24,881 nucleotides of DNA from a virus. Shown here in pieces: positions 856 through 24,550 of this stretch. The first letter of the stretch is position 1. The number at the start of each line of letters is the position of its first letter. The position numbers and the translations under genes were made by a program. The stretch spans positions 1 to 24,881 of IMG/VR virus record IMGVR_UViG_3300025849_000206; one strand, 5' to 3'. The notes beneath the pieces are model-generated. The model did not search any database, was not told the origin of the DNA, and saw only the letters and a list, made by a program, of their open reading frames with translations.

Positions 856-1812
856 ATGGCATCGTTAAAATCATTACTAGGAAGTAGAAACTTTACTCAA
901 GATGAAGGTAACCTTGAAAAAGGTAGAATTTATGCATATATGAACGGTCAGATGTACAGTAAAATGTGTAATGGCTTTTGTTTCATTGCACCCGGTAACG
1001 GTGTAGCAACTATCGATTCATGGGGAGCAGGTGGCTCAGGCGCAAGAATGTGTTGTTGCGGAGGCGGACTACCAGGTAATTCAGCGGCATATACACGTAA
1101 GAAACACAGTATGTCCAGCGGACAAAGAGTTTGTGGATGTATTGGTAAATCATGCGGTAATGCTAGTTCATTATGTTTTAGAGGATGTTCAGAACCTACA
1201 ATGTATTGCTGGTTTAGTTCAGGTAGTAATGGTTGTGTTTGTACACAAGGTGGTAGAGGCGGAACAAGTTTTTGTTCAACTTCTCCAAGTTTATATTGCT
1301 GTTATCGTGCAAATGGTTTTTGTGCAACAAACAGAGGACCAAACTGTGGTTTAGTATGTAATCACTGTAGTGGTATGTTCTGTGCAAGATCATTTGGTGG
1401 AGAAACTAACTGTTGCGGTATTACATCGTGTGCAAGTTTCTTAGGTTGTTATCCACAGTGTACATGTATGCACTATTATCATGTTTCAGTTCCAGCAGGT
1501 ATTTTCTCAAAAGAAGGTCTTATGGTAACATATGGCACAGAAGAAAATAATCCATATTCACGTTGGTCAGGAATGGGCGCACACCAATTTAGTTTAGCAT
1601 TAAATGCGGCAAGTAGAAATCCATCAAGAGGTGTTTATCACGGTAGTTGTTGGATGGGTAACAGAGCATGTCAGTGTTATGAGCAATTAGGTTGTGGTCA
1701 CTTTGTACCATACGGAACAGGCGGTATGGCGGCTAACCCATGTCCAGGTGTTAGAGATCACGGCTGGCGCGGCGGCGACGGTGCTGTACGTATTAAATTC
1801 GTCGAAGGTTAA
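856..1812 (+). CDS. Cys/Gly-rich adhesin-like protein, copy 1
   Basis: A 318-aa protein with 32 cysteines by my count (about 10%), many of them in Gly-rich context. The N-terminus (MASLKSLLGSR...NLEKGRIYAY) is shared with the genes at 23594 and 24567. Residues 56-62 are WGAGGSG, typical of the glycine-rich domain of phage fibre tips, followed by a CCC run at 66-68, CFRGCSEPTM from 107, SRWSGMG from 235 and CPGVRDH from 296, and a closing strand RIKFVEG. There is no signal peptide or membrane span. The start is supported by AGGAG at 843-847. Gly-rich phage adhesins such as the gp38-type tips of T-even relatives bind host receptors through polyglycine-stacked cores; adhesin function here is inferred. 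The Cys load is very unusual and suggests bound metal or disulphides formed after release. It could instead be a virion decoration protein. Confidence 0.8.
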   Translation: MASLKSLLGSRNFTQDEGNLEKGRIYAYMNGQMYSKMCNGFCFIAPGNGVATIDSWGAGGSGARMCCCGGGLPGNSAAYTRKKHSMSSGQRVCGCIGKSCGNASSLCFRGCSEPTMYCWFSSGSNGCVCTQGGRGGTSFCSTSPSLYCCYRANGFCATNRGPNCGLVCNHCSGMFCARSFGGETNCCGITSCASFLGCYPQCTCMHYYHVSVPAGIFSKEGLMVTYGTEENNPYSRWSGMGAHQFSLALNAASRNPSRGVYHGSCWMGNRACQCYEQLGCGHFVPYGTGGMAANPCPGVRDHGWRGGDGAVRIKFVEG

Positions 1813-1825
1813 TCTAAAAAAATCA

Positions 1826-1833
1826 AATAAATA
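1826..1833 (+). promoter_or_regulatory. Candidate late promoter (AATAAATA)
   Basis: AATAAATA lies in the 39-base gap before the first giant gene, 18 bases upstream of its GTG start and just ahead of the ribosome site. It differs from the T4 late consensus only at the first base. The stretch that follows, AATACTGTG, recurs upstream of the paralogous gene at 6913 (6847-6855). Confidence 0.5.
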
Positions 1834-1840
1834 CTGTGTC

Positions 1841-1854
1841 AGGAGAATTAAGTG
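1841..1854 (+). promoter_or_regulatory. Ribosome site fixing a GTG start
   Basis: AGGAG at 1841-1845 sits six bases before GTG at 1852. Translation from this GTG gives MAQVGRISGPLL, which lines up with MAIGRISGPLL of the ATG-started paralogue at 6913. That alignment makes GTG the start in preference to any downstream ATG. Confidence 0.75.
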
Positions 1855-4800
1855 GCACAAGTAGGTAGAATATCTGGACCGTTATTAACGGCAAATCTAG
1901 AACGTCAAGGCAAAGATTTAGACTTTAGAAATCTTCAAGCCAGCACTCCCATAATTAAATTAAAAGTTGATACCAATCGAATTGGTGTCAACACAACGTC
2001 TCCTGTATTTGATTTAGATGTTAACAGCACACTAGCAGGTACTTTTTTAACTACTTCATCTTTAAGTCCAGGCAATTTTACTATATCTAACAATGATATA
2101 AATGCATTAACTGGATCTATTAATTTTAAAAATGATGTGCGTTCTAGTGGTATTGCTACTCAGCAATTATTGTTTAGAGATAATACTATTAGTTCTTATG
2201 TAACTGATGCTGATATAAATCTTTTACCTAATGGAACAGGAACAATAGAATTGCAAGGCGATACTAATGTTACTGGTAACTTAAACGCAACTGGTAACAT
2301 TACCTTAGACGGTAATATAATTTTTGGTGATAGTACTACAGACAGTGTAACACTAAACGCAGATGTTGCAAGTAATATTATTCCGGATGCAGATAATACC
2401 TATAACTTAGGATCAATATCTAATAGATGGGATCAAATTAACTTTGGTACTATGGAAATCCAAACAATACTTGGTAATAGTATATCTCTTGAAAATGGCT
2501 TAATAGATATAACTGAACGCCAAGGTAATATTTTTTATGTAGACAAAAACGGTAATGATTCAAATGTAGGAGATCATCCTAACGGTGCATTCCTTACATT
2601 AACAAGAGCATTAAGTTTTGCAGATGCAAGTATTCAAGGCCCTGTAGTCATACATTTAGCGCCTGGAGAATACCAAGAAGCATTTCCGTTAACAGTGCCT
2701 ACAAATGTAACTATTACTGGTGAAGATATTCGTAACACAGTTATAAAACCTACACTAGCAACAAATACAGCAAATGCTTTTTTAGTTGACGGCGAAGTTA
2801 CAATAGAAAATTTAACAATTAAAGACTTTTACAGTCCGGGATATGCGTTTGCATTCAAAACAAATGCAACAATTACTTCACGTAGTCCTTATATAAGAAA
2901 TGTATCTGTTATTACAAAAGGTAGTGTAACAAGCATAACTGATCCTAATGGTTACGATCAGGGAGATGCTGGTAAAGGTGTTTTAGTAGACGGAGCAAGT
3001 GTAACTAGTTCAAGTCAAGAAGCAAGTATGTTATTCCACAGTGTAACATTTATCACACCGGGCGTTGAAAGTGTTAAGTTAACAAATGGCGTAAGAGTTG
3101 AATGGTTAAACAGTTTTGTTTATTTTGCACAACAAGGTATATTACTTGAAAGAGGATCAACAGGACATCTAAGCACCGACGGTTCTACTATACAATATGG
3201 TGCTGAAATACGTTGTATTGGTAGTGCAAATGTGTACGGCGAATTTGGAATAAAAGCAGACGGCGCAGGCACAAATGCATACTTGGTAAATCATAATTTT
3301 ACCTATATAGGTACAGGCAAAAGCACAGCAAATGACGATACACTATCAATACATGCAAATGAAGTTGTAGAAATAAATTCAGGCAGAGTAAATTATACAA
3401 CTGTAGATGAACAAGGAAATTTTAGAGTTGGTACTGCACTTTTTGTAAATCAAGATACAGGCAAAACTGAAATACAATCTGCAAGTATTGATTTTAGTAA
3501 CACAGATTCATTAACTATAGTAACAGGAGGTTCAACAGTAACCATAGATGATACTAGAGTTAGAACAGATTTTATAAGATTAAGAGATAATAAACTTGAA
3601 ACCTTAGTTGGCAATTTAAAAATAAATTCAGCATTAAACACAGTTAATATTAATGCAAATACAAATATTACAGGTAATTTAGATACTACAGGAAACACAA
3701 CTATAACAGGATCGTTGGTTAGTTTAGGTGACGCAGACACAGATAATATTAGTTTCAATAGTGATGTAACATCAGGCATGACGCCGAATGTAAATTCTGC
3801 TTATGATCTAGGATCAACAACAAAAAGTTGGAGGACTGTGTTTGCTGAAAAATTAACAACTGATGTATTTGACGTAGAAGGTAATAGATTTACAACAAAA
3901 GATTCTAATGCAGATTTAGTATTAGAAGCAAGCGGAACTGGTAAAGTAAATTTTGGTAATTTAATAATAGACGGAACTTTTACCCAAACAGATGTTAGTA
4001 CATTAGACAGCGGCGATGTAAACTCTGATGCTATTGTTACAGATAATATTAATATTAGTTTAAACAGTACTTTAAATAATGTAACTACTCCTACATTAAA
4101 TGCAAACGGTGTTGCAAATTTTGATAGTGTAGGATTTGTAGGAAATAGAATTACTACAAACGAGAGTGATGCAAATTTAGAGTTACAACCATCAGGCACT
4201 GGTATAGTTAGAATACCTGGCAATGTTCTTGTTGAAAATACAATTATGGCGCCAACTGCAAACTATAGTTTTGCAAGTGCTACTATGACAACAACAAGTG
4301 GTGAAAACCTTGTTACTGATAATTTAAATTTAGAACAAATGATCACAGGTGATATTTTATTTGAAGGTAATGTAATCACTACAAGAAGTTCTAATACCGA
4401 CTTAGAATTTAGATCGACAGGAACAGGCACTGTAGATATACAAGAAAATGTTGAAGTAGGACAAAACATTTCTGTTAATACTATTTCAGGAGTTGCTCCT
4501 AATATTACTGCAACTGACATTACAGCAAACTTTGCAACTATAAACACATTCTTTAGTGCTCAATCTGCTATAGTTGGTTCTATTAGTTTAGCAGGTAATA
4601 GAATACAAACTATTGAAAGTAATGCGGATTTAGAGTTTGATGCAAGCGGAACAGGCCAAATTATACTAGACGAAAATGTTATAATACCAAATCTTACTGT
4701 AGACGGAAATACAAATATTACTATTTCTACTGCACCTTCTGCTACATTTGATAATGCTACAATTACAAATAACGTTATTGCTCCTAGTAGTATTACTATA

Positions 4801-6771
4801 GAAGGTGTACAAATTTTTGGAAACAAAATACAAACAAAATCTTCTAACAGTGATTTAGATTTACGTGCAAGCGGAACTGGTGCTATACGTTTTAAAGAAG
4901 ATACAAATATATCTCAAAATTTAACAGTAAATGGTACACTTACTGCATACAATATTGGTATAGACGGAGATGTTGATCTTAATGAATTAGAAACAGACGG
5001 AAATATAGAATTTAATGACAATTATGTAACAACAACAGCATCAAACAGTGACTTAGAACTACGAACATCAGGATCTGGATTTATAGACTTACAAGGTATA
5101 AAAATAAGAGACAATGTAATACAAACAACTTCCGCAGATATTTTACTTGATCCTACTGATGTTCTTGAAGTTAATGGAACAGGAAGTGTTGTTTTACCAA
5201 ATAGTACTGTGTCAGGATCTCCAGACCCAGAATACAACAATGGCGCTTTTAGTAATGTTACAGGCGACGGTAGTGATTTCTTTAAACGTGAAGTTACAGT
5301 TAACGGTGTAAGAATTGTAGCGGCAGGCACAGTTGGAGGGCAAACAGCAGTTCCTGATTCGTTTGTTGAAAAAGTAGCACGTATGTTTGAATTATTCTTA
5401 GATAAGGATGCCACAGGCATTAATGAATCTGCACAAAGAACTGTAATTAAAACATTAAGTGGAGATGCAGGCACATATCATGCGGCAGTTGGACCAACAC
5501 TACAACGAGTAGCAAGAGGTGCTGGCGCAGATTATACTCCAAACTTCTTAACTGATGCAGGTATTGCTTCTTATAACTTGTCACCACTATTTGATAGTCA
5601 CGTTGCCAATGATATGGTTTGGTATCTAAACTCAACTGGTGATGCCCCTGGAGACGGCGACAATGATGCACAAGAAGTAATTGAACACGTATTTCATACA
5701 TTACATATGCACGGTCTTGACGCAGTATCATTAAAAATGTATCCTTATATTAGTGCAGACTGGGCAACTGGTCCATTGTATGCGGCTATGGAAGAAGCAT
5801 ACGATGCAGGCAAATGGGATTCATCAGGATATGGTGGAAACGCTTGGAAGACTGATGGAGATGCATTTGAAGTAGCGGCTAAAGAATATTTGTTCCTGTT
5901 AAACTTTGGTATGTTTGAATACTCAAGTCTATGGGATGGTGGAAGTCTTAGTCCTGAATGGACAGACGATATGCGTACACAATCCGGCATACAAGCAAAT
6001 AATCCATTAGGCTATGCATTACACAATACATATATTGCTCCTGTTATTAGTAAGCCTTCGTTGACAACAATTAGAACTATATTCCAAGACGGTGACGTAG
6101 GCGATCCAACAGTTGCAGGTGCATCAGGATATGTAGTAGACAACTACACTCCGGTATTTTCAAATAATATTGGTGCTGTGCAATATAATTCAGATGTTAA
6201 TCAAATAGTAGGATTTACAAATTCTGTAAAAAGAGTATTAGGTCCCGGATTATATAGTGATGATTTACAAACATTTGTTAATCCAAAACCCGACAACACA
6301 ATAGAATTTATCGCACAAGGTATTAATAGTATGACAACATCTTATGGCGCAACTACAATGGATCGTATTGAATTGAGTGGTATAGACATTGATGGAAATA
6401 CATTATCTACAAATATTACAAACAGTGATTTGATACTTTTACCAGAAACAGGACAAGGCAAAGCACAGTTTGAAGATTTGCACGTACTTGATAGCACAAT
6501 TACTAATACATCGGGTGGCGCGGCAAGTATAGGATACACAGACAACGGATATATTAAATTCAATCAAACTAGTGGAATGAGAATACCTGCAGGAACAACA
6601 GGACAACGAATAGCAACTCCTGAAGTTGGCACAACACGATGGAATCTTGCTTTAGGAAACTTAGAAGTGTACGGAGTTACTGGTTGGACAGATGCTTCAG
6701 GATCTGGAGCCACAGTTAGTGCCGCTGAAATGGACGAGATAATGAATGAATTTATTCTTATCTTTGGTTAA
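1852..6771 (+). CDS. Giant beta-helix fibre protein with inserted zincin-like domain
   Basis: A 1639-aa protein, paralogue of the 1626-aa protein at 6913. Order of parts: N-terminal GRISGPLL segment (1-25); beta-structured repeats with DADNTYNLGSISNRW (to about 220); a DUF1565/pectate-lyase-like beta-helix opening at FYVDKNGND (about 226), with SPYIRN, GDAGKG and GSANVYG landmarks; a QGNFRVG module near 520; then SGTG-type tandem repeats (about 675-1090). Residues about 1140-1430 form a globular insert absent from the paralogue, containing EVIEHVFHTLHMHG (1275-1288) and a helical EVAAKEYLF segment (from 1340), which together suggest a metal-binding, metallopeptidase-like fold. A trimer-type tip follows (GTTGQR...TRWN, then a final helix). 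Most likely a tail or head fibre. Fibre role is well supported by architecture; catalysis by the insert is inferred and the motif is not a canonical HExxH. Confidence 0.85.
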   Translation: MAQVGRISGPLLTANLERQGKDLDFRNLQASTPIIKLKVDTNRIGVNTTSPVFDLDVNSTLAGTFLTTSSLSPGNFTISNNDINALTGSINFKNDVRSSGIATQQLLFRDNTISSYVTDADINLLPNGTGTIELQGDTNVTGNLNATGNITLDGNIIFGDSTTDSVTLNADVASNIIPDADNTYNLGSISNRWDQINFGTMEIQTILGNSISLENGLIDITERQGNIFYVDKNGNDSNVGDHPNGAFLTLTRALSFADASIQGPVVIHLAPGEYQEAFPLTVPTNVTITGEDIRNTVIKPTLATNTANAFLVDGEVTIENLTIKDFYSPGYAFAFKTNATITSRSPYIRNVSVITKGSVTSITDPNGYDQGDAGKGVLVDGASVTSSSQEASMLFHSVTFITPGVESVKLTNGVRVEWLNSFVYFAQQGILLERGSTGHLSTDGSTIQYGAEIRCIGSANVYGEFGIKADGAGTNAYLVNHNFTYIGTGKSTANDDTLSIHANEVVEINSGRVNYTTVDEQGNFRVGTALFVNQDTGKTEIQSASIDFSNTDSLTIVTGGSTVTIDDTRVRTDFIRLRDNKLETLVGNLKINSALNTVNINANTNITGNLDTTGNTTITGSLVSLGDADTDNISFNSDVTSGMTPNVNSAYDLGSTTKSWRTVFAEKLTTDVFDVEGNRFTTKDSNADLVLEASGTGKVNFGNLIIDGTFTQTDVSTLDSGDVNSDAIVTDNINISLNSTLNNVTTPTLNANGVANFDSVGFVGNRITTNESDANLELQPSGTGIVRIPGNVLVENTIMAPTANYSFASATMTTTSGENLVTDNLNLEQMITGDILFEGNVITTRSSNTDLEFRSTGTGTVDIQENVEVGQNISVNTISGVAPNITATDITANFATINTFFSAQSAIVGSISLAGNRIQTIESNADLEFDASGTGQIILDENVIIPNLTVDGNTNITISTAPSATFDNATITNNVIAPSSITIEGVQIFGNKIQTKSSNSDLDLRASGTGAIRFKEDTNISQNLTVNGTLTAYNIGIDGDVDLNELETDGNIEFNDNYVTTTASNSDLELRTSGSGFIDLQGIKIRDNVIQTTSADILLDPTDVLEVNGTGSVVLPNSTVSGSPDPEYNNGAFSNVTGDGSDFFKREVTVNGVRIVAAGTVGGQTAVPDSFVEKVARMFELFLDKDATGINESAQRTVIKTLSGDAGTYHAAVGPTLQRVARGAGADYTPNFLTDAGIASYNLSPLFDSHVANDMVWYLNSTGDAPGDGDNDAQEVIEHVFHTLHMHGLDAVSLKMYPYISADWATGPLYAAMEEAYDAGKWDSSGYGGNAWKTDGDAFEVAAKEYLFLLNFGMFEYSSLWDGGSLSPEWTDDMRTQSGIQANNPLGYALHNTYIAPVISKPSLTTIRTIFQDGDVGDPTVAGASGYVVDNYTPVFSNNIGAVQYNSDVNQIVGFTNSVKRVLGPGLYSDDLQTFVNPKPDNTIEFIAQGINSMTTSYGATTMDRIELSGIDIDGNTLSTNITNSDLILLPETGQGKAQFEDLHVLDSTITNTSGGAASIGYTDNGYIKFNQTSGMRIPAGTTGQRIATPEVGTTRWNLALGNLEVYGVTGWTDASGSGATVSAAEMDEIMNEFILIFG
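3877..5100 (+). repeat. SGTG-type tandem coding repeats, first giant protein
   Basis: Consecutive units each carry the pattern N-x-I-x-T-x-x-S-N-x-D-L-E-L-x-x-S-G-T-G. Equivalent codons start at 3877, 4138, 4363, 4591, 4816 and 5014, giving steps of 261, 225, 228, 225 and 198 bases, all multiples of three. A more distant copy (NTLSTNITNSD) occurs near 6400 after the inserted domain. The units probably form a trimeric fibrous shaft. Confidence 0.8.
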
Positions 6772-6797
6772 CTAAGTCATTATATTATCTACATTCA

Positions 6798-6805
6798 CAT
6801 AAATA
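6798..6805 (+). promoter_or_regulatory. Candidate late promoter (CATAAATA)
   Basis: CATAAATA lies in the 141-base gap between the first two giant genes, 107 bases before the ATG at 6913. If T4-type spacing applies, transcription would start just where the adjacent hairpin (6810-6845) begins, placing the hairpin at the extreme 5' end of the message. Confidence 0.5.
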
Positions 6806-6809
6806 CAAT

Positions 6810-6845
6810 ATAACAAAAGAATCAGACCTAAAATTCTTTTGTTAT
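6810..6845 (+). terminator. Perfect 13-bp stem-loop, terminator or 5' RNA cap hairpin
   Basis: ATAACAAAAGAAT (6810-6822) is the exact reverse complement of 6833-6845, with a 10-base loop CAGACCTAAA. It lies 38 bases after the stop of the first giant gene, the expected place for a terminator. However, the stem is A+T-rich and no T-run follows the 3' arm (the next bases are TAATACTGTG), although TTTT sits inside the arm. Because a late-promoter octamer ends five bases upstream, the hairpin could instead protect the 5' end of the next transcript. Confidence 0.45.
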
Positions 6846-6846
6846 T

Positions 6847-6907
6847 AATACTGTGGTCAACCCGCAATGCAAGGTGGTTGGAGGGACAAGATCCCCGTGT
6901 TAAGGAG
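6847..6907 (+). other. G+C-rich leader block before the second giant gene
   Basis: Bases 6861-6900 are about 60% G+C (24 of 40) in surroundings near 36%. Short pairings are possible: CAACC at 6858-6862 with GGTTG at 6876-6880, and GGGA at 6883-6886 with TCCC at 6892-6895. The leader of the paralogous gene at 1852 has AATACTGTG followed almost at once by AGGAG; here the same AATACTGTG (6847-6855) is separated from AGGAG (6903-6907) by this extra block. I recognise no known riboswitch or tRNA in it. Confidence 0.4.
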
Positions 6908-6912
6908 TAGAG

Positions 6913-9900
6913 ATGGCAATAGGTCGCATATCCGGTCCGCTCTTAAAGTCAAATCTCATTAGAAATGGGATAGACCTGGCTTTTGAGACAGACCTTTTAT
7001 ACTTAGATGTAACTAACAATCGCATCGGTATTAATACAGCAACTCCAGAACACGATCTAGACGTTAACGGTACTATTAGAACTACAAATTTGTTGTTAGA
7101 CAAACTAACAGCAGGTAGTATTACGATTGAAAATAATGATATTACAAGTAGCACAGGAACTATTGATTTAGGTACTGCTGATCAAGTTGTATATCAAAAT
7201 AAACTTGTAGTTGATAGTTTTGAAATTAACGACAATACAATTAGAACAACAGATTCAAATGCAAACTTAGAACTAGATCCAAGTGGTACAGGAACTATTG
7301 AATTACTTGCAAATACTAACGTATCAGGAAATTTACATGCAACTGGTAATATTAGTGCAGACGGAGACATTGTACTTGGTGATGCAGATACTGACAGTAT
7401 TAATTTTAATGCAGAGATTGCAAGTAATATTATTCCAGACGGAGGCGGATCATTTACATTAGGCGAGGCTGGAAAAACATGGAGTACTGTATTTGCAAAT
7501 ACAGTAGACGGCCAAACTATAAATGCAAATCAAGTTAATATTGCAGGTATAAATTTAAATACAAGACATGCTAATACTTTATATGTTAGTGAAAACGGTA
7601 GTAATAATAACGCTGGTAATCATCCACAATCGCCTTATCAAACTGTTGAAAAAGCATTACAAAATGCTACTTCAGGAGACACAATCCACATTTATCCAGG
7701 CGAATATCAAGAAAGACTTCCTCTAGTAGTTCCTGTAGGAGTTACAGTTAAAGGCCATAGTATGAGAAGTGTAACTATCAAACCTGATAGTGTTGACTCA
7801 GAAGATGTATTTCATCTCAATGGCGAAACAACTGTTGAAGATTTAACAATCAAAGATTTTTACTATAACAGCGGAACTAATGTAGGACATGCATTTAGAT
7901 TTGCACCTAGTTTTAAAGTAACATCACGCAGTCCTTACATTAGAAACATAACTGTTATTACAAAAGGTAGTGTAACAAATGCTAGTGATCCAAGAGGATT
8001 TAATCAAGGTGATGCAGGTAAAGGTGCATACTTAGATGGTAGTGTTGCACATGCAGATTCAAAAGAAGCAAGTTGCTTATTCCATGCAACAACTTTCATT
8101 ACTCCAGGCGTTGATGCATTAACATTTACAAATGGTGTTAGAATAGAATGGCTAAACTCATTTACGTATTTTGCTAATAGAGGGTTTTATGCTGTTAACG
8201 GATCAACTGGTTTAAAAGGATCAGGAGAAACAGAATTTAGAGTAAGTGACGTAGACGGATCATTTAGTGCTGGAGAAACTTTTGCAGTAAACAGTATTGA
8301 CGGAAGTACTGTTATTGCTAGTGGCACTATTGATAGAGTTGATGCTGATGATAAATTTTATATTTCAGGCAACGTATCAGGTATAACAGAAGCAACAACA
8401 CGTACTGCAAAAACAATTAAATTTAACGGCAATGCAAAATTACAAACTGGTAATAAAAAGTTTGGATCTGCAAGTGCAAATTTAGATGGAATAAACAGTT
8501 ATCTAAGTGTAGGTGCTAATGACGATTTTGGATTTGGTACAGATGATTTTACATTAGAAGCATGGATTTACGCGGCATCTACTACAGGTGAGCAACCAAT
8601 TTATGATCTACGTGCAGGAATTGCAACAGATACTGCACCTTACTTTTACTTAGATGGTACAACCTTAAAATACCAAGTCGGTAATGCTACTCCTGTAATA
8701 AGTGGCGGCACTATTACAGTTAATACATGGCACCACGTTGCTGTAAGTAAAATTAGTACAGGTACACGCATGTACTTGGACGGTAATCAAGTAGGTAGTA
8801 CATATGTAGATAATAATGATTACGGTTTTACAAAACCTGTGTTTATAGGTGCTAATTTTGATCTAGCAAATTATTTTACAGGTAATATTGATGATGTTAG
8901 AATTAGTAACAGTGCAAGATATTTAGATACAACATATACTGTTCCTACAATGCAAATTACTGGCGATAGTAATTGTGTACTATTAACACATTTAGATGGT
9001 GCAAATAATGCAACCACAGTTGAAGAAGATATTAAGGTAAAACAAAACTTAACATTTAGTGGCGGAGCAACTGCTAACTTTATTGACTTATATAATACAA
9101 CTGACTTTGGTGGCGAACTAAGATCAATAGGCTCAGCAAACGTTTATGGTAACAAAGGTGCAGTAGGCGACGGTACTGGTGTTATTATGTATCTAATAGG
9201 ACATAACTTTGCATATATTGGTAATGGTAAAGAAGTTACTAATGACGAAACTACAGTAGTACAAGCAAACGAAGTTGAAGAATTAAACAATGCAAAAGTA
9301 AGATTTACAAGTGTTGACCACAAAGGTGATTTTAGAGTTGGTGATAATTTTTATGTTAATCAAGAAACAGGCGAAGTTGTATTTGATGCTGTTAACTTAA
9401 ACATTACAACACCAGATGGTATTACATTTGGCACCGGCGGCAATGTAACATTTATTGATGGAACAAAAATTGAAACAGGCGATTTTAGATTAAGTGGAAA
9501 CACTATTGAAACGCTTACACAAAACTTTGTTATTGATAGTGCAACAAATATAGTTGACATTGAAGCAGATACTAATATTACAGGAAATTTAAGTGTTACT
9601 GGTAATTTTACACTAGGTGGTAATATTACAATAGGTGATGCAGATACTGATAGTGTTGAATTTGCTTCAGATATAAACAGTGATATTTTACCAAACACTG
9701 ACAATACTTTTGATTTAGGTAGTACAAGCAAACGCTGGAAAAACATTTACACTAACAATTTTGACAACGGCAATTTAAAAATTGAAGGTAATAAAATATC
9801 AACACAAGATAGTGATAGTGATTTAGAACTAGTTGCATCAGGCACAGGATCAGTTACTGTTCCTAATAACAATGTTGAGATTACAGGAACGTTTACGGCA

Positions 9901-11797: not shown

Positions 11798-12127
11798 ATG
11801 GCAACGTTTTTTAGAACAAGAGTAATTAAAGATATAGGAACACAAAAGATTGTGGTGTTTGAAGTACCAAGTGCAACTAACGCAACAGTAATTGGACTTA
11901 ACTTAGCAAATACTACAGACTTTGCAGTGCAAGGAAGTATTTTGATAAAAGATGACACGAGTGTAGAAGGATTTTATGTCAAGGATGTAATGATTCCACC
12001 ACAAACGGCATTTAAAGCAATGATTGGCGGCGAAAAGATTATTTTGCCAACATCACATCAATTAATAGTACAGTCAAGTGCAACTGATAGCATAGATGCT
12101 ATTATTAGTTATGTGGATATTCAATAA
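11798..12127 (+). CDS. Small beta-sandwich structural protein, second copy
   Basis: A 109-aa protein starting four bases after the stop of the second giant gene, in a likely operon. It is all beta in pattern: KIVVFEVPSATNATVIGLNLAN, then an IPPQTAFKAMIGGEKIILP segment and a terminal SIDAIISYVDIQ strand. It shares the plan of the proteins at 1 and 22905: a variable strand, an N-containing turn, an amphipathic loop with P-x-x-x-F, and G-x-K-I. No catalytic motif, signal or membrane segment is visible. Its position directly after a giant fibre gene suggests a connector, cap or decoration protein for the fibre. Function is inferred only from context. Confidence 0.8.
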   Translation: MATFFRTRVIKDIGTQKIVVFEVPSATNATVIGLNLANTTDFAVQGSILIKDDTSVEGFYVKDVMIPPQTAFKAMIGGEKIILPTSHQLIVQSSATDSIDAIISYVDIQ

Positions 12128-17778: not shown

Positions 17779-17785
17779 AGATAAT

Positions 17786-17793
17786 GATAAATA
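17786..17793 (+). promoter_or_regulatory. Candidate late promoter (GATAAATA)
   Basis: GATAAATA sits in the 38-base gap between the third and fourth giant genes, 23 bases before the ATG at 17817. The sequence continues TATAAAG, and GGTGGAG at 17804-17810 serves as ribosome site. Confidence 0.5.
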
Positions 17794-17816
17794 TAAAGTA
17801 TACGGTGGAGTAACCA

Positions 17817-20800
17817 ATGGCAGAATTTAAACTAGGTAGAATCAGATTTATTTGGAAAGACGAATGGTCTGAAGCAACCACTTACTACAAAGACGATGTA
17901 GTGCGTTACGGTGGTAAGACATTTATGTGTGTAGTAGGACACATTTCGCAAACTGACTTTATGTTGGATCTAAACGATTCTACAGCAAAGTGGCAACAAT
18001 TTGCAGATGGTCAAACTTGGAGAGGCGATTGGGCAACAGGCACTGTTTACAAAATTAACGATATTGTAAAATATGGCGGACAACTTTATATTGCAAACAC
18101 AGGACACATTTCAGACGCTAGTGCCATTGGCGGATTGGAAAGTAATCTAGGCGATGATAGTACTGCGGCATATTGGGATTTATTTGGTGAAGGGTTTGAT
18201 TACAAAGGTGATTGGGCAATTAATACACGCTATAAAGTTAATGATATCGTTAAGTACGGCGCTCGTGTTTATATTTGTAAAACATACCATGTTAGTTCAC
18301 CGAACACAACATCAGGATTAGAACTAAATCAATCAGCATGGGATATTATTAGTGAAGGATTTGATTGGAGAACAGATTGGACTGTTGGTACACGTTATAT
18401 AGTTGGAGATTTAGTTAAGTATGGTGGACAAGTTTATTCTTGTAATACTGGACATACTTCAGCGGCAACGACTGTTCTTGGTCTTGAAGCCGATCAAGCA
18501 AAATGGGATTACTTCCATAAAGGTATTGAATACTTAGGTGAATGGGCAAGTGCTTATAGATATAAAATTAACGATGTTGTAAAAGATTCAGGCGGACTTT
18601 GGATTTGTACAACGTATCATACATCAAGTGTTGCAGTAGACTTAAGATCAGACGAAGCAAACTGGGCACAGTTTATTCCAGGATTAGAATTTGAAGATAG
18701 TTGGGGAGCATATTCATTATACCAACCAGGTGACATTGTTACTTATGGTGGTTACACTTATGTTTCAAAAACAAATAACTCAGAGAAAAAACCAAACGAA
18801 GCACCAAACGATTGGGACGTATTTGCAACTGGCTTTAACTTAAGAGGCGACTACGGTGATGACTCTGCAAGTCAAGATTACTTAACAGGTGATGTTGTAA
18901 GAGTAGGTGGATTTACATATCTTGCTATAGCAAATTCAAATGGCGTTCGTCCACCAAACACAACATATTGGGAAAAATTAAACGAAGGTGCTAACTGGAG
19001 AAACACTTGGACTGACGCAACATACTATGACTTAGGTGATACAGTTCAACAAGGTGTTAACAGTTACATTGCAGTACAATCACATACATCAAGTAATTCA
19101 GTAAATGATCCAGCAACTGATACAGCAGGAGCATTTTGGAACTTCTTTAGTGGTGGTGCTGAATCTGGAAACTTAACAACTACAGGTGATATTGTTTATT
19201 ACGGTGGTTCAGGACCTGCAAGATTACCAGTTGGTAAACCGGGTCAGGTATTAAAAGTTAATGATGCGGCAACTGCTCCTGAATGGACATACTTTGGTCA
19301 AATTAACCATGTATGGTTTGTTGATACAGGTGCTGGTGTAGATGCACCGGCTCCAGATAGAGGTATTACATTAGATAGACCATTTAAAACAGTTCGTTAT
19401 GCAACTGAACAAATTAGAGACGGTGGTGTAAATCAACCAGATCGTATTTTAATCGAAGCAAATAGATCATTCTTACAAGCAGAAGTTACAGAATGGATTG
19501 ATTATCAAATTGCAAATGCTATTTCGCCATTTACTGGTTCATTTACATATGATAAAGCAAAATGTTTAAGAGACACAGGTCAAATTATTGATGCTATTGC
19601 TTGGGATTTGTCACATGGTGGTAATGTTAGAACGAGATTATCAGCACTTTCATACTTCCAACCGGGCGGTGCAAGTTACATTGCAGGACAAACAGGTGAA
19701 ACTGTTGCGGCAATTAATTACTTAAAAAGTATTATGCCAAACATTCTTGCAAAAACAGATCCAGCGGCAAATTATCAAACACTAAACAGTGTTGCAAGTC
19801 CAATTACACAGCAAAAGTTATCAGCATATGAAGAAACAACTGGAGCAATTACAACTATTAATGGATTACTTCCAATTATTACAGATGCTATTACAGCAGG
19901 TGTTATTACTGGTATTCCAGCAGAACTACATGCACAAAAAACAATATTTGTTAAGACTGGACAATACAACGAAGTACTTCCAATTATTATTCCAGAAGAT
20001 GTTGCTATAGTTGGTGACGAACTACGTTCAACAAGAATTTCGCCTGCACCAAGTTTAACTGATGCGGCTGACGTTGCAAAAAGTATTGCGGCACTAACAA
20101 GAGTAAGTGCAGTAGTAAGTAACATTGTACAAAACGTAGCAATTACAAAATCTACAGGTAATACTGATACACAAGTAACTACAAGACCAGCAGGTAGTGC
20201 TAGTGCAGGTACAGCGGCAGAAAACTTATTTAGAGAAATTTATGACTACATTGATTGGGGCATTAATGGTGCTTCTGGAGATAGTACAGAGCCTACAACC
20301 AGAGGCGTAAACAATCCAGAAACATCAACAGGTTACACATACGCAGTAGAAACATTAGAAGCAAATAGAGATTTTATTATTGCAGAAGTACACGCTTATA
20401 TTGCAGTAACTTATCCAAGTTATACATATACACTAGCGGCTTGTGCAAGAGATATGAATGCATATATTGATGCTGTCAAACATGATTTAATTTACTCAGG
20501 TAATTATAGATCATTATTAGCGGCAAAATATTATGTACACTCAGTAGAAGGTTGTTTATTAAAAGACATGTTCTATGCACGTAATGGTACAGGTATAAGA
20601 AACTGTACTCTTACAGGATTAACAGGAACACTAAGTGGTGCAAATGCATACGGAACTAAACGTCCAACATCAGGTGCTTACGTTTCACTAGATCCAGGTT
20701 GGGGACCAGCACATACTGATGCATGGATTACTAACAAATCACCTTATGTACAAAACGTAACTACATTCGGTACAGCATGTATTGGATTAAAAGTAGATGG

Positions 20801-22892
20801 TGACTTACATGATGGCGGTAATGATTCAATTGTTGCCAACGACTTTACACAAATTTTAAGTGACGGTATTGGTTATTGGGTTACAAACTTAGGTAGATCA
20901 GAACTTGTATCAGTGTTTACATACTACAACCACATTGGTTACCTTGCAGAAAACGGTGGTAAGATTCGTGCTACAAACGGCAACAACTCTTACGGTGATT
21001 TTGGATCAGTTGCAGAAGGCATTGACTCTACAGAAACTCCAGTATTAGGTGAAGTTGATAACCAACAATTAGAAGCACAAATTGCAAATGTTGTTACAGA
21101 TGGTGCAAATGAAATACTACAATTAGAATACGGAAATGCAGGTACAGGATATACTACAGAAGCAACAAGTGCAATCCTTACAGTTGACACAATTATTAAC
21201 AATGACCCAGACAGAACTACTGGTACATACAAAGGTATTACAGGTTCGACTTCAGGAAGTGGTACTGGACAAGAATTTGATATTCAAGTAACAGCAGTAG
21301 GTGGTGTCGAAGTTACAGTAATTAAAGGTGGTACTGGACACGCACCAAATGATGTTATTACAATTAGTGATAGTTTAGTAGGTGGTGGTGGAGCCGCAGA
21401 TGTAACATTCCAAGTTGACACAATTGGCGCGGCAACACGATATACACTAGCAGGTGAAGGCTTTGGAGCGGCAGTTGACACAGTAACAGTTAGAAACGGT
21501 GCAGTATTTGAAGTACAGTTAGAAGAAGATTCAACTGTTTATGGTGGTGATGGCTTTGTTACTATTGCCTCAAATGCACAGTCTGGTAATGCTACACAAA
21601 TTACACTAGCGGCAACAGATGTTAATCCAACTGGTACATATAATGGTATGATGATTTATATTGTAAGTGGACTAGGTGCAGGACAATTTGGTGTTATTGG
21701 ATCATACGATGCGTCAACAAAAATTGCAACTATTACAAAAGAATCAAATGGTAGTGCAGGCTTCGAACATATTAAAGGTTCAGCGATTGCAACAACACTA
21801 GATGCAACAACATCATATGACATTACTCCAAGAGTAATTTTCAGTGAGCCTTCAAGCGGTACACGAGCAAGAGGTAGAGCAAGAGTAGCAGATGAAAAAG
21901 TTGTTGAGGTTAAAATTATTGAGCCAGGTAGCGGTTACACAAGCGCACCGTCAATGACATTAATTGATCCAAGTCATACTATCGAAGTTCCGCATACAGT
22001 AAGAATTGGTAACGGAGTACTAGGACAACCAACATACTCAAATAGAGGTACAGGGTTTATTACAGCAAGTGCTGAAGTTGTTGGTGATGGTCTCGCAGAT
22101 ATTAGACAACTTGGTACAAAAATTAGAGTTGATGGACTTGATAGCATTCCACAAAAAGGTGCTAACGTTGAATTTGCAAGTTTGCCGAATAGATGGTTTA
22201 AACTTGTAAGTATTACTAACTTATTAGGTATTGGTCCATATAGTGCATTACTACAGATTAGTCCTGCATTACAAGCAGACGAAAGACCACCTCATACAGA
22301 TGCAATTACAATTAGACGTAGATATTCACAAGTACGTTTAACAGGACACGATTTCCTAGATATTGGTACAGGTAACTTTAGTAATACAAACTACCCAGGT
22401 GAACCATTAACAGATCCAGATCCACAGTATGAAACAAATGACTTTGGTGGAGGAAGAGTGTTCTACACAAGTACTGACCAAGATGGTAACTTTAGAGTTG
22501 GCGGATTGTTTAACGTTGAACAGGCAACAGGTATTGCTACACTAAACGTTGAAGCATTTAACATCTCAGGATTAAACGAACTACAACTTGGTAGTGTTGC
22601 ACTTGGTGGTGCAGGAGCAGTTATCACAGAATTTAGTACAGATGGTACATTTAGTGCTGATAGTGATAGTGTTGTTCCGACACAAAAAGCAATTAAAACG
22701 TATATTACATCACAAATTGGTGGTGGTGTTGCTACACTAAACGTTAACAGTGTAACAGCAGGTACAGTTGAGATTACGCAAAATCAAATATCAACTACCG
22801 ACGGCGGTAAGATAAATATACTTAACGCAGTAAACTTTAAAGGTGGAATAGACGGTGCTCCTGTAGCATTAAGTATGTTCCTAAGTAATTAA
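17817..22892 (+). CDS. Giant fibre protein: CBM-like repeats and beta-helix with helical inserts
   Basis: A 1691-aa protein, the largest in the window and paralogue of the protein at 12886. It begins MAEFKLGRIRFIWKDEW and has eight CBM5/12-like repeats (to about 430). The beta-helix begins near 498 (VWFVDTGAGVD) and contains IVGDELRST, SPYVQNVTTFGTA and DFTQILSDGIGYW. Two related alpha-helical repeats interrupt it: residues about 547-611 (EANRSFLQAEVTEWIDY, CLRDTGQIIDA) and about 845-912 (LEANRDFIIAEVHAYI, CARDMNAYIDA). A Gly-rich segment near 1134-1210 (TGSTSGSGTGQEFDI) follows. The C-terminus shares RLTGHDFLDIGTGNF and DQDGNFRVGGLF with the paralogue. The Asp-box propeller is absent: its place near EPSSGTRARGRA runs directly to GSGYTSAPS. 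Likely a receptor-binding or long fibre component; the exact virion location is unknown. Confidence 0.87.
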   Translation: MAEFKLGRIRFIWKDEWSEATTYYKDDVVRYGGKTFMCVVGHISQTDFMLDLNDSTAKWQQFADGQTWRGDWATGTVYKINDIVKYGGQLYIANTGHISDASAIGGLESNLGDDSTAAYWDLFGEGFDYKGDWAINTRYKVNDIVKYGARVYICKTYHVSSPNTTSGLELNQSAWDIISEGFDWRTDWTVGTRYIVGDLVKYGGQVYSCNTGHTSAATTVLGLEADQAKWDYFHKGIEYLGEWASAYRYKINDVVKDSGGLWICTTYHTSSVAVDLRSDEANWAQFIPGLEFEDSWGAYSLYQPGDIVTYGGYTYVSKTNNSEKKPNEAPNDWDVFATGFNLRGDYGDDSASQDYLTGDVVRVGGFTYLAIANSNGVRPPNTTYWEKLNEGANWRNTWTDATYYDLGDTVQQGVNSYIAVQSHTSSNSVNDPATDTAGAFWNFFSGGAESGNLTTTGDIVYYGGSGPARLPVGKPGQVLKVNDAATAPEWTYFGQINHVWFVDTGAGVDAPAPDRGITLDRPFKTVRYATEQIRDGGVNQPDRILIEANRSFLQAEVTEWIDYQIANAISPFTGSFTYDKAKCLRDTGQIIDAIAWDLSHGGNVRTRLSALSYFQPGGASYIAGQTGETVAAINYLKSIMPNILAKTDPAANYQTLNSVASPITQQKLSAYEETTGAITTINGLLPIITDAITAGVITGIPAELHAQKTIFVKTGQYNEVLPIIIPEDVAIVGDELRSTRISPAPSLTDAADVAKSIAALTRVSAVVSNIVQNVAITKSTGNTDTQVTTRPAGSASAGTAAENLFREIYDYIDWGINGASGDSTEPTTRGVNNPETSTGYTYAVETLEANRDFIIAEVHAYIAVTYPSYTYTLAACARDMNAYIDAVKHDLIYSGNYRSLLAAKYYVHSVEGCLLKDMFYARNGTGIRNCTLTGLTGTLSGANAYGTKRPTSGAYVSLDPGWGPAHTDAWITNKSPYVQNVTTFGTACIGLKVDGDLHDGGNDSIVANDFTQILSDGIGYWVTNLGRSELVSVFTYYNHIGYLAENGGKIRATNGNNSYGDFGSVAEGIDSTETPVLGEVDNQQLEAQIANVVTDGANEILQLEYGNAGTGYTTEATSAILTVDTIINNDPDRTTGTYKGITGSTSGSGTGQEFDIQVTAVGGVEVTVIKGGTGHAPNDVITISDSLVGGGGAADVTFQVDTIGAATRYTLAGEGFGAAVDTVTVRNGAVFEVQLEEDSTVYGGDGFVTIASNAQSGNATQITLAATDVNPTGTYNGMMIYIVSGLGAGQFGVIGSYDASTKIATITKESNGSAGFEHIKGSAIATTLDATTSYDITPRVIFSEPSSGTRARGRARVADEKVVEVKIIEPGSGYTSAPSMTLIDPSHTIEVPHTVRIGNGVLGQPTYSNRGTGFITASAEVVGDGLADIRQLGTKIRVDGLDSIPQKGANVEFASLPNRWFKLVSITNLLGIGPYSALLQISPALQADERPPHTDAITIRRRYSQVRLTGHDFLDIGTGNFSNTNYPGEPLTDPDPQYETNDFGGGRVFYTSTDQDGNFRVGGLFNVEQATGIATLNVEAFNISGLNELQLGSVALGGAGAVITEFSTDGTFSADSDSVVPTQKAIKTYITSQIGGGVATLNVNSVTAGTVEITQNQISTTDGGKINILNAVNFKGGIDGAPVALSMFLSN
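17853..19107 (+). repeat. Eight CBM5/12-like coding repeats, second set
   Basis: The same unit as in the gene at 12886. Good copies include WATGTVYKINDIVKYGG, WAINTRYKVNDIVKYGA and WTVGTRYIVGDLVKYGG. The later units are degenerate (DYLTGDVVRVGG, YDLGDTVQQG). An array of short aromatic sugar-binding modules is the simplest reading. Confidence 0.65.
19455..20553 (+). repeat. Two dispersed copies of a helical NR-x-F-I repeat
   Basis: Copy 1 is at about 19455-19650 and copy 2 at about 20355-20553. Both read L/I-E-A-N-R-x-F-I/L-x-A-E-V-x-x-x-I, then a T-Y/F segment, C-x-R-D-x-x-x-x-I-D-A, then D-L-x-x-x-G-N-x-R. They lie either side of the LPIIIPEDVAIVGDELRST part of the beta-helix. I recall similar helical units in cyanophage fibre proteins. 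Confidence 0.65.
22811..22818 (+). promoter_or_regulatory. Weak candidate late promoter inside a gene (GATAAATA)
   Basis: GATAAATA occurs 86 bases before the ATG at 22905, inside the end of the fourth giant gene. The octamer is as good as the others but the distance is longer, so it may be chance in A+T-rich coding DNA. Confidence 0.25.
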
Positions 22893-22904
22893 CGGAGAAA
22901 CAAA

Positions 22905-23225
22905 ATGGCAACAGGAAGAATAGGCGCATCAGATTTGAGTGTGGGAGCAAATACTACAGTATATGAATGCCCTGCAGATAACTATGCGGTTGCAAGTTTA
23001 AATATTTGCAACAGAGGAAACCAAGCAACGTCAATTAGAATTGCTGTTGCTGATCTGGCTACACCAACAGTAGGCGAGTACATTGAATATGAAGTAGAAG
23101 TACTAGCAAAAGGTGTATTAGAAAGAACTGGAATAGTTTTAGCCGCAGGGCAAAAAATTGTATGTTACGCCTCAGGTGCTAACATTTCAGCAGTCGCTAT
23201 GGGCATTGAAACGTCTACGGCATAA
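22905..23225 (+). CDS. Small beta-sandwich structural protein, third copy
   Basis: A 106-aa protein with CGGAG at 22893-22897 before its ATG, 12 bases after the fourth giant gene. The sequence is all beta: TTVYECPADNYAVASLNICN, RIAVADLATPTVGEYIEYEV, GVLERTGIVLAAGQKIVCYA, then SAVAMGIE. I recall very similar short proteins in many marine phage genomes, usually left as structural or hypothetical. It shares a plan with the proteins at 1 and 11798. All three sit beside fibre or adhesin genes, so a connector or surface-decoration role is likely but unproven. Two Cys residues are in strands; no metal motif is seen. Confidence 0.8.
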   Translation: MATGRIGASDLSVGANTTVYECPADNYAVASLNICNRGNQATSIRIAVADLATPTVGEYIEYEVEVLAKGVLERTGIVLAAGQKIVCYASGANISAVAMGIETSTA

Positions 23226-23228
23226 ATA
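23221..23228 (+). promoter_or_regulatory. Candidate late promoter (CATAAATA)
   Basis: CATAAATA overlaps the TAA stop of the small beta-sandwich gene and lies 20 bases before the ATG at 23249, with AGGAG at 23232-23236. The arrangement (octamer over the previous stop, then AGGAG, then ATG) repeats that at 827-856. Confidence 0.5.
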
Positions 23229-23248
23229 CATAGGAGAAGGATAAAACC

Positions 23249-23581
23249 ATGGGAAGATATATAACAACTACAGGTACTGCTGGTGTTACTAGTCGAGAAA
23301 TTAGTACAACTTTTAGTGCCACGGTAAACGATAGAATACTAGCAAATAGTGCCAGTAGTGCTTACACTATTACGTTACCGACGAATGCTTCATTGTTAGT
23401 AAATGATACAATACAAATTATTGATATTTCAAACAATGCGGCAAGTAATAATCTTACTGTTGGTAGAAACGGTAGTTTAATTAACGGAGCCGCAGAAAAC
23501 TTAGTCATTGACGTAAGTGGTGCGATTGTTACATTAATTTACACAGGTTCTACATACGGTTGGGTCGTTGGCTCGGTATAA
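23249..23581 (+). CDS. Small beta-rich fibre-tip-like protein
   Basis: A 110-aa protein. The sequence alternates short beta strands and Asn/Gly turns: YTITLPTNASLLVNDTIQII, NLTVGRNGSLINGAAENL, then AIVTLIYTGSTYGWVVGS. This TLP...D-x-I...V/I-x-R-N-G-x-x-I-N-G...LIYTGSxYGW pattern is common at the end of phage tail fibres, where it trimerises or forms the tip; here it is a free-standing gene. No catalytic or transmembrane features are visible. It is placed between a small beta-sandwich gene and the Cys-rich genes, all closely spaced, so it is probably co-expressed with them. Role as a tip or adaptor is inferred. Confidence 0.78.
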   Translation: MGRYITTTGTAGVTSREISTTFSATVNDRILANSASSAYTITLPTNASLLVNDTIQIIDISNNAASNNLTVGRNGSLINGAAENLVIDVSGAIVTLIYTGSTYGWVVGSV

Positions 23582-23593
23582 TAGGGGAAACAA

Positions 23594-24550
23594 ATGGCAT
23601 CATTAGAAGCATTAATCAAAGCGAAACAGCCTCAGTCTGAAGAAGAAAATCTAGAGTCAGGCAGACTGTATAGTTTTTCGGAAGGAAATACTTACACAAA
23701 GTTTTGTAAGTGTTCATGTTGGTGTCCAAATAGTAACGGTACAGCAGTAATTGAAGTTTGGGGCGCAGGCGGCTCAGGCGCAAAAATGTGTTGCTGTGGT
23801 AACGGATTACCAGGTAACTCAGGATCATATTCAAAAACAACAAAGGTAATGACTCCATCAGATTACATGTACGGTTGTACAGGATTTGCATGTGGTAATT
23901 CAGACGCACTATGTTTTAGAGGTTGCTCAGAACCAACAATGGTTTGTATGGTAGCGGCATCAGGAAACAGTTGTATGTGTGCAAGAGGTGGTAAAGGTGG
24001 CATAAGTTACTGTTCAACAGGTTCAAGTATGTACTGTTGCTTTAGAGCAGGCGGATTTTGTTATACTAACACAGGTCCAAACTGCGGTACAATTTGTAAC
24101 CAATGTTCAGGACAATGGGACGCTATAGCATATGGCGGAGACGTAAACAGATGCGGAAATATTTCATGCATGGGCTTTCATGGTTGTCGCCCTTCATGTG
24201 TATGTTTATTTAGAGGCATGGTAGCATTTCCTCCAGGAATGATTACAGAGTGCGGCGGAATTGTACAGTACGGTATGTCAGATGACTCAGCACACTCACG
24301 TTGGTCAGGTATGGGGCAATTTGAAGCAAATGCAATGATTAACGGTGCAGGCAGATCACCAGGTCAAGGACTAACATGGAAAGCATGTTACCAAGGTGAT
24401 ACAAGTTGTGGTTGCTATGAGACTAATGGTTGTCAAAGTACATTACCATATGGCGTTGGAGGTCCTGGACCTCAACCTTGTCCAGGTGTGAGAGATCACG
24501 CAACACGCGGTGGTATGGGTGCAATTAGAATTAAGTTTATAGAAAGTTAA
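23594..24550 (+). CDS. Cys/Gly-rich adhesin-like protein, copy 2
   Basis: A 318-aa protein, exactly the length of copy 1 at 856, also with 32 cysteines by my count. Shared anchors: MASLxxL N-terminus with NLESGRLYSF; WGAGGSG; a CCC run again at residues 66-68; CFRGCSEPTM; YCC; GPNCGxxCNxCSG; SRWSGMG; CPGVRDH and a final RIKFIES. Between the anchors residues diverge freely (for example HVSVPAGIFSKEG against MVAFPPGMITECG), which fits a conserved Cys/Gly scaffold with variable loops. AGGGGAAA at 23582-23589 is the likely ribosome site. Receptor binding is inferred; metal binding or late disulphide formation could explain the Cys content. Confidence 0.8.
   Translation: MASLEALIKAKQPQSEEENLESGRLYSFSEGNTYTKFCKCSCWCPNSNGTAVIEVWGAGGSGAKMCCCGNGLPGNSGSYSKTTKVMTPSDYMYGCTGFACGNSDALCFRGCSEPTMVCMVAASGNSCMCARGGKGGISYCSTGSSMYCCFRAGGFCYTNTGPNCGTICNQCSGQWDAIAYGGDVNRCGNISCMGFHGCRPSCVCLFRGMVAFPPGMITECGGIVQYGMSDDSAHSRWSGMGQFEANAMINGAGRSPGQGLTWKACYQGDTSCGCYETNGCQSTLPYGVGGPGPQPCPGVRDHATRGGMGAIRIKFIES

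Follow-up and report, generated by a model that had tools for sequence, protein, structure and literature searches.

A 24,881-bp stretch of viral DNA (IMG/VR record IMGVR_UViG_3300025849_000206, hereafter the window) lacks every GCWGC and every AGCT site on both strands (positions 1-24881), and the same two words are absent from the 181,934-bp contig of its longest-known relative (G001). The interpretation that we favor, at a probability of ~85%, is that these sites were purged under Type II restriction by the hosts, with a DpdA-like transglycosylase as the likely second layer. The host and its enzymes remain unidentified.

The window and its relative G001

The window covers tail genes of a large uncultured phage that is probably marine. 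In the list of open reading frames all CDSs lie on the + strand. A Cys-rich CDS (856-1812, 318 aa) has a diverged copy at 23594-24550 (318 aa; DNA repeat match). The CDS at 1852-6771 (1639 aa) contains a region (5223-6093) that similarity searches match at 78% identity to Synechococcus phages S-RIM2/S-RIM12, where it is annotated as hypothetical protein or baseplate wedge subunit; it has stretches in common with the CDS at 6913-11793 (1626 aa; DNA repeat match). Two short CDSs (11798-12127, 109 aa; 12138-12866, 242 aa) are followed by one of 1630 aa (12886-17778), whose homologous ORF in G001 is o132 (78%) and whose start resembles that of a tail-fibre-like CDS at 17817-22892 (1691 aa; S-CAM3 matches annotated tail fiber-like protein). 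The latter was the query that retrieved the 47 relatives considered below. CDSs of 106 aa (22905-23225) and 110 aa (23249-23581) complete the map.

On the evidence of its gp23, gp20 and gp43 homologues, G001 is assigned to the T4 superfamily. Among the matches listed, the best for capsid (≤71%), portal (≤56%) and polymerase (≤45%) were jumbo T4-related phages of Proteobacteria, and on that ground a cyanophage label for G001, taken from tail-gene matches, was dropped. No tRNA was found in G001, and one scan of genome contigs with its TonB-receptor gene, made in search of the host, returned no relative.

GCWGC and AGCT are absent beyond expectation

Exact searches of all 24,881 bases found neither GCAGC nor GCTGC. 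The initial annotation had claimed this absence for positions 856-24550; it holds there, but it is not limited to that span and covers the whole record. The chance expectation then given (~17) was too low: dinucleotide shuffling of the window (100 replicates) predicts 26.9 ± 5.0 GCWGC sites, and shuffling synonymous codons in 13 CDSs (500 replicates) predicts 31.9 ± 2.4 (z = -13.4). The proposal that only a W centre is avoided was borne out: GCGGC (44) and GCCGC (6) are present, and GCSGC is fivefold commoner than synonymous-codon shuffles predict (50 vs. 9.8). When GCNGC was counted by frame, the W forms were 0 and the 50 GCSGC words, of which the GCGGC at 1084-1088 (+ strand) is an example, fell in the Ala-Ala phase (34/50) or the next phase (16/50), with 0 elsewhere. 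AGCT is a second, larger hole, which the initial annotation had missed (0 vs. 54.6 ± 5.9, synonymous-codon shuffles, z = -9.3). Since GCAGC and GCTGC are reverse complements, absence by itself does not distinguish a GCWGC (TseI/ApeKI) from a GCAGC (BbvI) specificity.

With codon-preserving nulls, G001 would be expected to have 214.8 ± 6.5 GCWGC and 471.8 ± 17.0 AGCT sites in 182 kb, and it has 0 of each.

The data support selection on the DNA word. Alanine codons followed by GC in the window are GCG (28) or GCC (6) and never GCA or GCT (n = 34), in agreement with the earlier tally of Ala-Ala pairs, and the remaining Ala codons are mostly GCA (430) or GCT (130), with 18 GCC and 11 GCG (n = 589). 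The same holds in G001 for Ala before GC (GCA/GCT in 0/238), for Gln between G and C (CAG in 0/47) and for Ser after xGC (AGC in 0/72). GCWGC is thus gone in all coding phases, which supports the earlier suggestion that selection acts on DNA and not on protein or on codon or tRNA supply.

Relatives have lost different words

Of the 47 relatives, 17 have no GCWGC, 11 have no AGCT and 7 lack both, and others lack CATG, CTAG, GTAC, RCTAGY or RCATGY; from one window alone, the purging of other sites by relatives could not have been seen. These data show that (i) purging extends further for GCWGC than for AGCT among tail-gene relatives; and (ii) the two losses are separate, each gained or lost independently. 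GCWGC is only partly depleted in three contigs (G016, 53/185; G021, 41/161; G006, 13/73), and a single strict selection alone does not account for this. Where G011 has GCWGC sites, G001 has GCSGC at 21/59 aligned positions.

Elimination was scored at an observed/expected ratio <0.1 with an expectation >15. In three sets of segments the eliminated words were nearly all palindromic; the only asymmetric 5-mers were GCAGC (20 and 8 segments), GTAAC (2 segments), which is one half of GTWAC, and CGAAA (1 segment).

Probable Type II restriction by the hosts

The criterion for Type II avoidance is met by GCWGC and AGCT in the window (0/31.9 and 0/54.6) and in G001 (0/214.8 and 0/471.8), and the eliminated words are palindromic specificities of the Type II kind whose loss exceeds codon use under codon-shuffle nulls for both DNAs. 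We take GCWGC/GCAGC to be the recognition sites of TseI/ApeKI/BbvI, and AGCT that of AluI. The missing words equal these sites, although no such enzyme was found and the host is unidentified. Hosts of this lineage would carry orthodox Type II enzymes with TseI/BbvI specificity (GCWGC) and AluI specificity (AGCT); these would cut any unmodified site as the phage DNA enters, and selection would remove every such site. If the hosts' enzymes change, separate gain and loss of GCWGC and AGCT purging would be expected, and purging would be needed only at sites that the phage leaves otherwise unprotected. Searches for DNA methyltransferases of the C5, N4/N6 and D12 types (PF00145, PF01555, PF02086) gave 0/28 among the relatives' records, G001 included, many of them fragments.

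Site elimination is a known phage strategy, reported for 7.1% with Type II and <0.5% with other types (PMC6286503). The near-zero Type II palindromes of the lytic phages described there (Rusinov et al., 2018) resemble those found here; what sets the present case apart is that two words of 4 and 5 bp have vanished altogether across 182 kb in a relative from the T4 superfamily, and that the missing word varies between lineages of one group. Among environmental prokaryotes, m4C methylation occurs at GCWGC in Chloroflexi and at AGCT in Thaumarchaeota (PMC6329791).

A gene with a transglycosylase fold

The group carries a DpdA-like gene with a predicted tRNA-guanine-transglycosylase (TGT) fold near QueE; the G001 copy is ORF o018 (521 aa). 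A narrow-alignment AF2 model (pLDDT 49) was replaced by one from a wider alignment (pLDDT 69.6, pTM 0.75), with which Foldseek gave 22 matches at E ≤ 0.001 (best E 1.1e-6, TM-scores 0.34-0.52, rmsd 7-10). All 22 were TGT proteins, including QTRT2, a subunit without catalytic function. Against 1iq8_A, VIA-align gave Z 18.2 with 305 aligned residues and rmsd 5.2. D107-S-G-G-x-Q and D152 are invariant in 8/8 aligned o018 homologues, four of which are 32-42% identical to the first; DSGGFQ is the catalytic Asp motif of TGT. By sequence, o018 matched neither the Pfam TGT family nor any solved structure searched, and the CAjan protein annotated queuine tRNA-ribosyltransferase likewise had no Pfam TGT match. 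By its model o018 has a TGT fold and may be a DpdA-like guanine transglycosylase; no chemistry has been shown.

A QueE-like gene accompanies 24/24 loci having 9 kb downstream and 8/56 others. Long contigs contained FolE (5/6) and QueD (2/6), with QueC and QueF in 0/6 each; in G001 itself, neither FolE nor QueD was found. As in the DpdA phages CAjan and 9g (PMC6884629, PMC5567051), a TGT-fold protein seems to occur with some preQ0-pathway genes, here QueE, FolE and sometimes QueD. The protein differs from CAjan DpdA in length (521 vs. 306 aa) and, as noted, has no Pfam sequence match. CAjan DpdA modifies GA and GGC (Kot et al., 2020, as cited in PMC8306585), whereas the context inferred here is G before a purine.

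Eliminated palindromes lack GA and GG

At gene-holding loci, GA or GG occurred in 0/11 cluster events of robust palindrome elimination, when compared with 30/42 in controls (p = 1.8e-5). The controls were two phage groups, N4-like and HMO-2011-like, and mixed words were set apart. A broader cluster-level test gave 0/29 vs. 30/42 events (p = 1.2e-10), but it counts some lineages repeatedly, through different regions of the same genomes, and the gene-locus test is the more reliable. When each distinct eliminated word in the broader test is counted once, GA/GG is found in 0/8 for this group and in 5/10 for the controls (p = 0.036). GATC, GGCC, CCGG, TCGA, GANTC, CCWGG and GGWCC were eliminated in 0 of the loci powered for each. 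This G-purine rule is post hoc, having been noticed in the data and tested afterwards. Control loci are genome pieces, where a missing DSGG[FY]Q motif does not prove the gene absent, and the relatives of CAjan DpdA, with 3 loci, offered too small a sample to test the rule independently.

The rule has exceptions and limits (GGYRCC, 0/10 and 1/11; GGTACC, 1/15; GGWWCC, 1/14; GTSSAC, 0/15; and GWGCWC in 4/62 at an expectation of 11-15), and some GA/GG-free words were never lost (ACGT, 0/266; CGCG, 0/113).

One explanation would be two layers, in which 7-deazaguanine shields G-purine sites and purging removes the rest. A DpdA-like transglycosylase would replace G before a purine by 7-deazaguanine, sites with GA or GG would be chemically shielded and need no purging, and sites with every G before a pyrimidine (AGCT, GCWGC, CATG, CTAG, GTAC, GCGC) would be unshieldable and deleted lineage by lineage. 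This explanation is itself post hoc, and we give it an even chance. The rule could instead merely mirror which restriction enzymes the hosts happen to carry, without any phage DNA modification, which we consider possible rather than probable. The hosts are unidentified and may be unlike those of the two control groups, the N4-like controls likewise never lose GATC (0/76) or GGCC (0/73), and PA5oct and Vibrio phage 2.275, in which a transglycosylase homologue is present, have no eliminated palindrome in ~49 kb each. Against a mere host repertoire, CCWGG is eliminated in 31/74 N4-like and 26/29 HMO-2011-like loci and GATC in 36/68 HMO-2011-like loci, but in 0/200 and 0/266 loci of this group, respectively, which fall into 53 sequence clusters. 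In 35-kb pieces of relatives without a detectable transglycosylase homologue, G-purine words are scarce (Atu_ph07, CCWGG 0/22; GAP32, GAYRTC 1/20; XaC1, GAYRTC 3/24).

Published digests fit the G-purine rule only in part. DNA of 9g is cut fully by RsaI, partially by HhaI and BstUI, and also by AluI, and it resisted BamHI and EcoRI; against the rule, TaqI (TCGA) cut it fully and HindIII (AAGCTT) did not, and the authors saw no flanking pattern (PMC5567051). MED16 DNA is cut at GA/GGC sites (PMC8306585), and CAjan DNA is uncut by HaeIII but fully cut by EcoRI (PMC6884629). No report of complementarity between shielding and purging was found in the literature searched, subscription papers being outside its scope.

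Alternatives to host restriction

The phage might itself encode GCWGC- and AGCT-specific endonucleases, for host DNA degradation or exclusion of rivals, and lack the sites for immunity. A nuclease sparing its own genome would give the same complete, palindrome-specific loss, and G001 has nuclease-like genes (o157, HNH-like by eye with no Pfam match; o105, SegE GIY-YIG). Homologues of o105 and o157, however, are also found in contigs that keep GCWGC (G011, 83% and 78%; G020, 70% and 73%), and near relatives that lack different words (AGCT, CATG, CTAG, GTAC) would each require a different nuclease. We regard this origin as improbable. Most G001 ORFs lay outside the nuclease-domain scan, and this alternative stays open.

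Removal of the words by mutation or translation bias (methylated-cytosine deamination, tRNA supply, codon-pair bias) is scarcely credible and already contradicted: context-dependent codon choice is real in the window and G001, and deamination-type AGCT changes (AGTT, AACT) are as many as AGCA + TGCT in the G016-G001 pair (53/259 vs. 47/259, direction not polarised), but they are fewer in the closer G004-G001 pair (17/137 vs. 51/137), codon-preserving nulls are exceeded (z = -9 to -33) with all three phases hit, deamination does not give GCSGC enrichment, and a biased mutation spectrum would by itself be unlikely to bring the counts down to zero.

Implications

Purging of restriction sites by phages is already known, but it is less well understood what decides which sites are purged and which are retained. 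The loss of two short words from the whole of a 182-kb T4-superfamily contig is an extreme case. What is new here is a TGT-fold gene in the group together with the absence of GA/GG among its eliminated palindromes. If the relation is true, the set of purged words is a genomic footprint that would give the sequence context of a DNA-modifying enzyme without chemistry. If shielding and purging are complementary, composition alone would predict the modified contexts and the hosts' enzymes for many metagenomic phages.

Words missing from the window

The initial annotation had claimed that GCAGC and GCTGC (together GCWGC) are absent from this 24,881-base virus fragment, whose long genes run in one direction. 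An exact search found 0 of each, and both shuffle nulls were far higher, at 26.9 ± 5.0 with dinucleotide shuffles and 31.9 ± 2.4 with 500 synonymous-codon shuffles of 13 CDS. GCSGC (GCGGC and GCCGC) was observed 50 times against 9.8 expected. The recoding of Ala-Ala pairs reported there was confirmed in 34 of 34 cases, the Ala codon before GC being GCG in 28 and GCC in 6; elsewhere, GCG or GCC made up 29 of 589 Ala codons. The absence of GCWGC is real, and the selection on DNA that had been proposed is supported in a restriction-driven reading.

A 4- to 6-mer scan revealed AGCT as a second missing word (0 vs. 54.6 ± 5.9 under the codon null). The remaining 4-mer palindromes of the window lay within 2 SD of this null, save GGCC (8 vs. 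18, z -2.7), GATC (79 vs. 62, z +3.0) and AATT (246 vs. 299, z -5.4). AATT was also below the codon null in G001, the longest relative (1836 vs. 2132), and is unexplained in both.

Separable losses among relatives

With the longest window gene as query, 47 loci were recovered (the counts of two of them, L009 and L014, are identical). GCWGC was at zero in 17 of the 47, AGCT in 11 and both in 7. In G001 (181,934 bases), GCWGC was found 0 times vs. a codon null of 214.8 ± 6.5 and AGCT 0 times vs. 471.8 ± 17.0 over 176 mechanically chosen ORFs, and neither word occurred outside these ORFs. The 96-kb contig G002 held one GCWGC and no AGCT, only GCWGC was missing from G004 and G005, depletion was partial in G016, G021 and G019, and G011 was normal. 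For G020, the GCWGC count of 145 equalled the first-order expectation (145) vs. a maximal-order expectation of 214. Since relatives lose GCWGC or AGCT in differing combinations, the two losses are separable.

Codon choice in G001 followed the missing words. Ala before GC was encoded by GCG (157/238) or GCC (81/238), and elsewhere by GCA or GCT in 3,426 of 3,739 cases; Gln between G and C was always CAA (47/47), and Ser after xGC was never AGC (0/72). GCWGC sites of G011 were matched by GCSGC in G001 at 21 of 59 aligned positions, and the commonest G001 counterpart of AGCT sites in G004 was TGCT (40/137). In the more distant G016-G001 pair (n = 259) the leading counterparts were AGCA (31), AGTT (30) and AACT (23), the last two indicating that transitions are common in that pair.

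Among the matches listed, the best for the G001 capsid, portal and polymerase were jumbo T4-related phages of Proteobacteria; as none of these best matches was a cyanophage, a cyanophage affinity was rejected for G001. This phage contig also encodes a TonB-dependent receptor with a DUF6580 protein (L059:12126-14338; G001:112126-114338), a region without a match in the other contigs compared, and a radical-SAM and PP-loop (QueC-like) gene cluster (L056:265-12694; G001:40262-52694). TAAATA was low in all ten contigs compared, G001 and nine others (G001, 62 vs. 140.7 by codon shuffle), which may reflect the role of TATAAATA as T4-type late promoter.

A patchwork of eliminated words

We scanned 320 palindromes over 127 segments (the window, contigs and two relative sets, leaving out L134 and loci already inside a longer contig), with elimination defined as an expectation of at least 10 and at most 10% observed. 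Among the segments powered for each word, elimination was seen for GCWGC in 25/112, AGCT in 19/127, CATG in 6/127, RCTAGY in 2/110, GCGC in 2/119, RCATGY in 1/105 and CTAG in 1/127; low-expectation 6-mers were also eliminated here and there. Two further sets (60 and 80 usable loci) added GTAC, TGCA and GTWAC. CATG was wholly missing from L053/G025 (G025, 0 vs. 116), as from L171, L173, L174, L175, L213, L236, L245, L322, L336 and L341-L346, and the degenerate six-base word RCTAGY from G021 (0 vs. 44) and G019 (0 vs. 25).

Changing host restriction would leave such a patchwork of Type II-like missing words across lineages. Such restriction-site avoidance is already established (PMC6286503), and GCWGC and AGCT belong to the words known to be methylated in environmental prokaryotes (PMC6329791). 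Three DNA-methyltransferase families had no match among 28 records.

A predicted DpdA-like transglycosylase as a possible second layer

The window itself holds no transglycosylase; its longest close relative, G001, has such a gene, o018 (L054:10408-11970), with a DSGGFQ motif and no Pfam match. Its structure, predicted with 26 homologues (pLDDT 69.6, pTM 0.75), matches tRNA-guanine transglycosylases: these were 22 of 22 Foldseek matches at E ≤ 0.001, at modest TM-scores (0.34-0.52), and comparison of the model with archaeosine TGT 1iq8_A gave Z 18.2 (305 residues at 5.2 Å). Homologues (13 records) were found in PA5oct-like phages, Phosso and Vibrio phage 2.275. A QueE-like gene lies near the PA5oct homologue, and in Vibrio phage 2.275 annotated preQ0 reductase, queuosine biosynthesis, GTP cyclohydrolase and QueD genes follow.

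A QueE-like gene lay downstream in all 24 loci with 9 kb of downstream sequence. The transglycosylase was present in six of six long contigs, but five were already known carriers at selection; FolE was found in 5/6 and QueD in 2/6, and QueC and QueF in 0/6 above the search cut-off, G001 o067 falling just under that for QueC. G001, in which neither FolE nor QueD was found, would have to draw on precursors from its host. DpdA enzymes insert 7-deazaguanine into phage DNA and block restriction (PMC6884629); CAjan DpdA is reported to act on GA and GGC (PMC8306585).

A post hoc rule for the eliminated words: no G before a purine

Among 287 loci of the phage group to which the window belongs, 266 reached at least 6 kb. 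At an expectation of at least 12 and at most 10% observed, none of seven words with GA or GG was eliminated (GATC 0/266, GANTC 0/266, TCGA 0/244, GGCC 0/212, CCWGG 0/200, CCGG 0/131, GGWCC 0/69). Those eliminated were AGCT (60/265), GCWGC (33/216), CATG (16/266), CTAG (8/265), GTAC (6/266), GCGC (3/188) and TGCA (1/266); ACGT (0/266) and CGCG (0/113) were not.

Control loci, all genome pieces and none with DSGG[FY]Q, were run through the same pipeline. HMO-2011-like loci (68 of 80 used) had eliminated GATC (36/68), CCWGG (26/29 powered), GGCC (3/65) and AGCT (4/68), and N4-like loci (76 of 79 used) CCWGG (31/74), GGWCC (5/69), GTAC (7/76) but not GATC (0/76). A 50-kb stretch of HMO-2011 (L378; related loci L379-L458) had GATC at 0/157 and CCWGG at 0/70. 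At an expectation of at least 20, 160 transglycosylase-holding loci in 15 clusters gave 0 elimination events with GA/GG and 11 without, whereas the 62 control clusters yielded 30 with, 12 without and 3 that were mixed (p = 1.8e-5). At 12, the counts were 0 and 17 (1 mixed) vs. 72 and 34 (16 mixed) (p = 5.0e-8), and four further settings gave p from 3.2e-7 to 7.1e-5. The rule was seen in the data first and tested afterwards, the clusters are approximate, and the control phages may have other hosts.

Relatives in which no homologue was detected had few G-purine words in pieces of 35 kb: CCWGG was missing from Atu_ph07 (0/22) and GAYRTC was low in GAP32 (1/20) and XaC1 (3/24), with GCGC also missing from the latter two (0/20 and 0/16). 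Of the carriers, PA5oct and Vibrio phage 2.275 had nothing below 10%, and Phosso had AGCGCT at 0/14 and CCATGG at 3/16.

Agreement of the rule with published digests is in part only. G before a purine pairs with C after a pyrimidine on the opposite strand, so the pattern is equally compatible with a mark on cytosine. The loss of GCWGC is a known strategy carried to an extreme, and a second word had been overlooked; what is new, and can be tested, is the proposed complementarity between the purged words and a predicted DNA modification.
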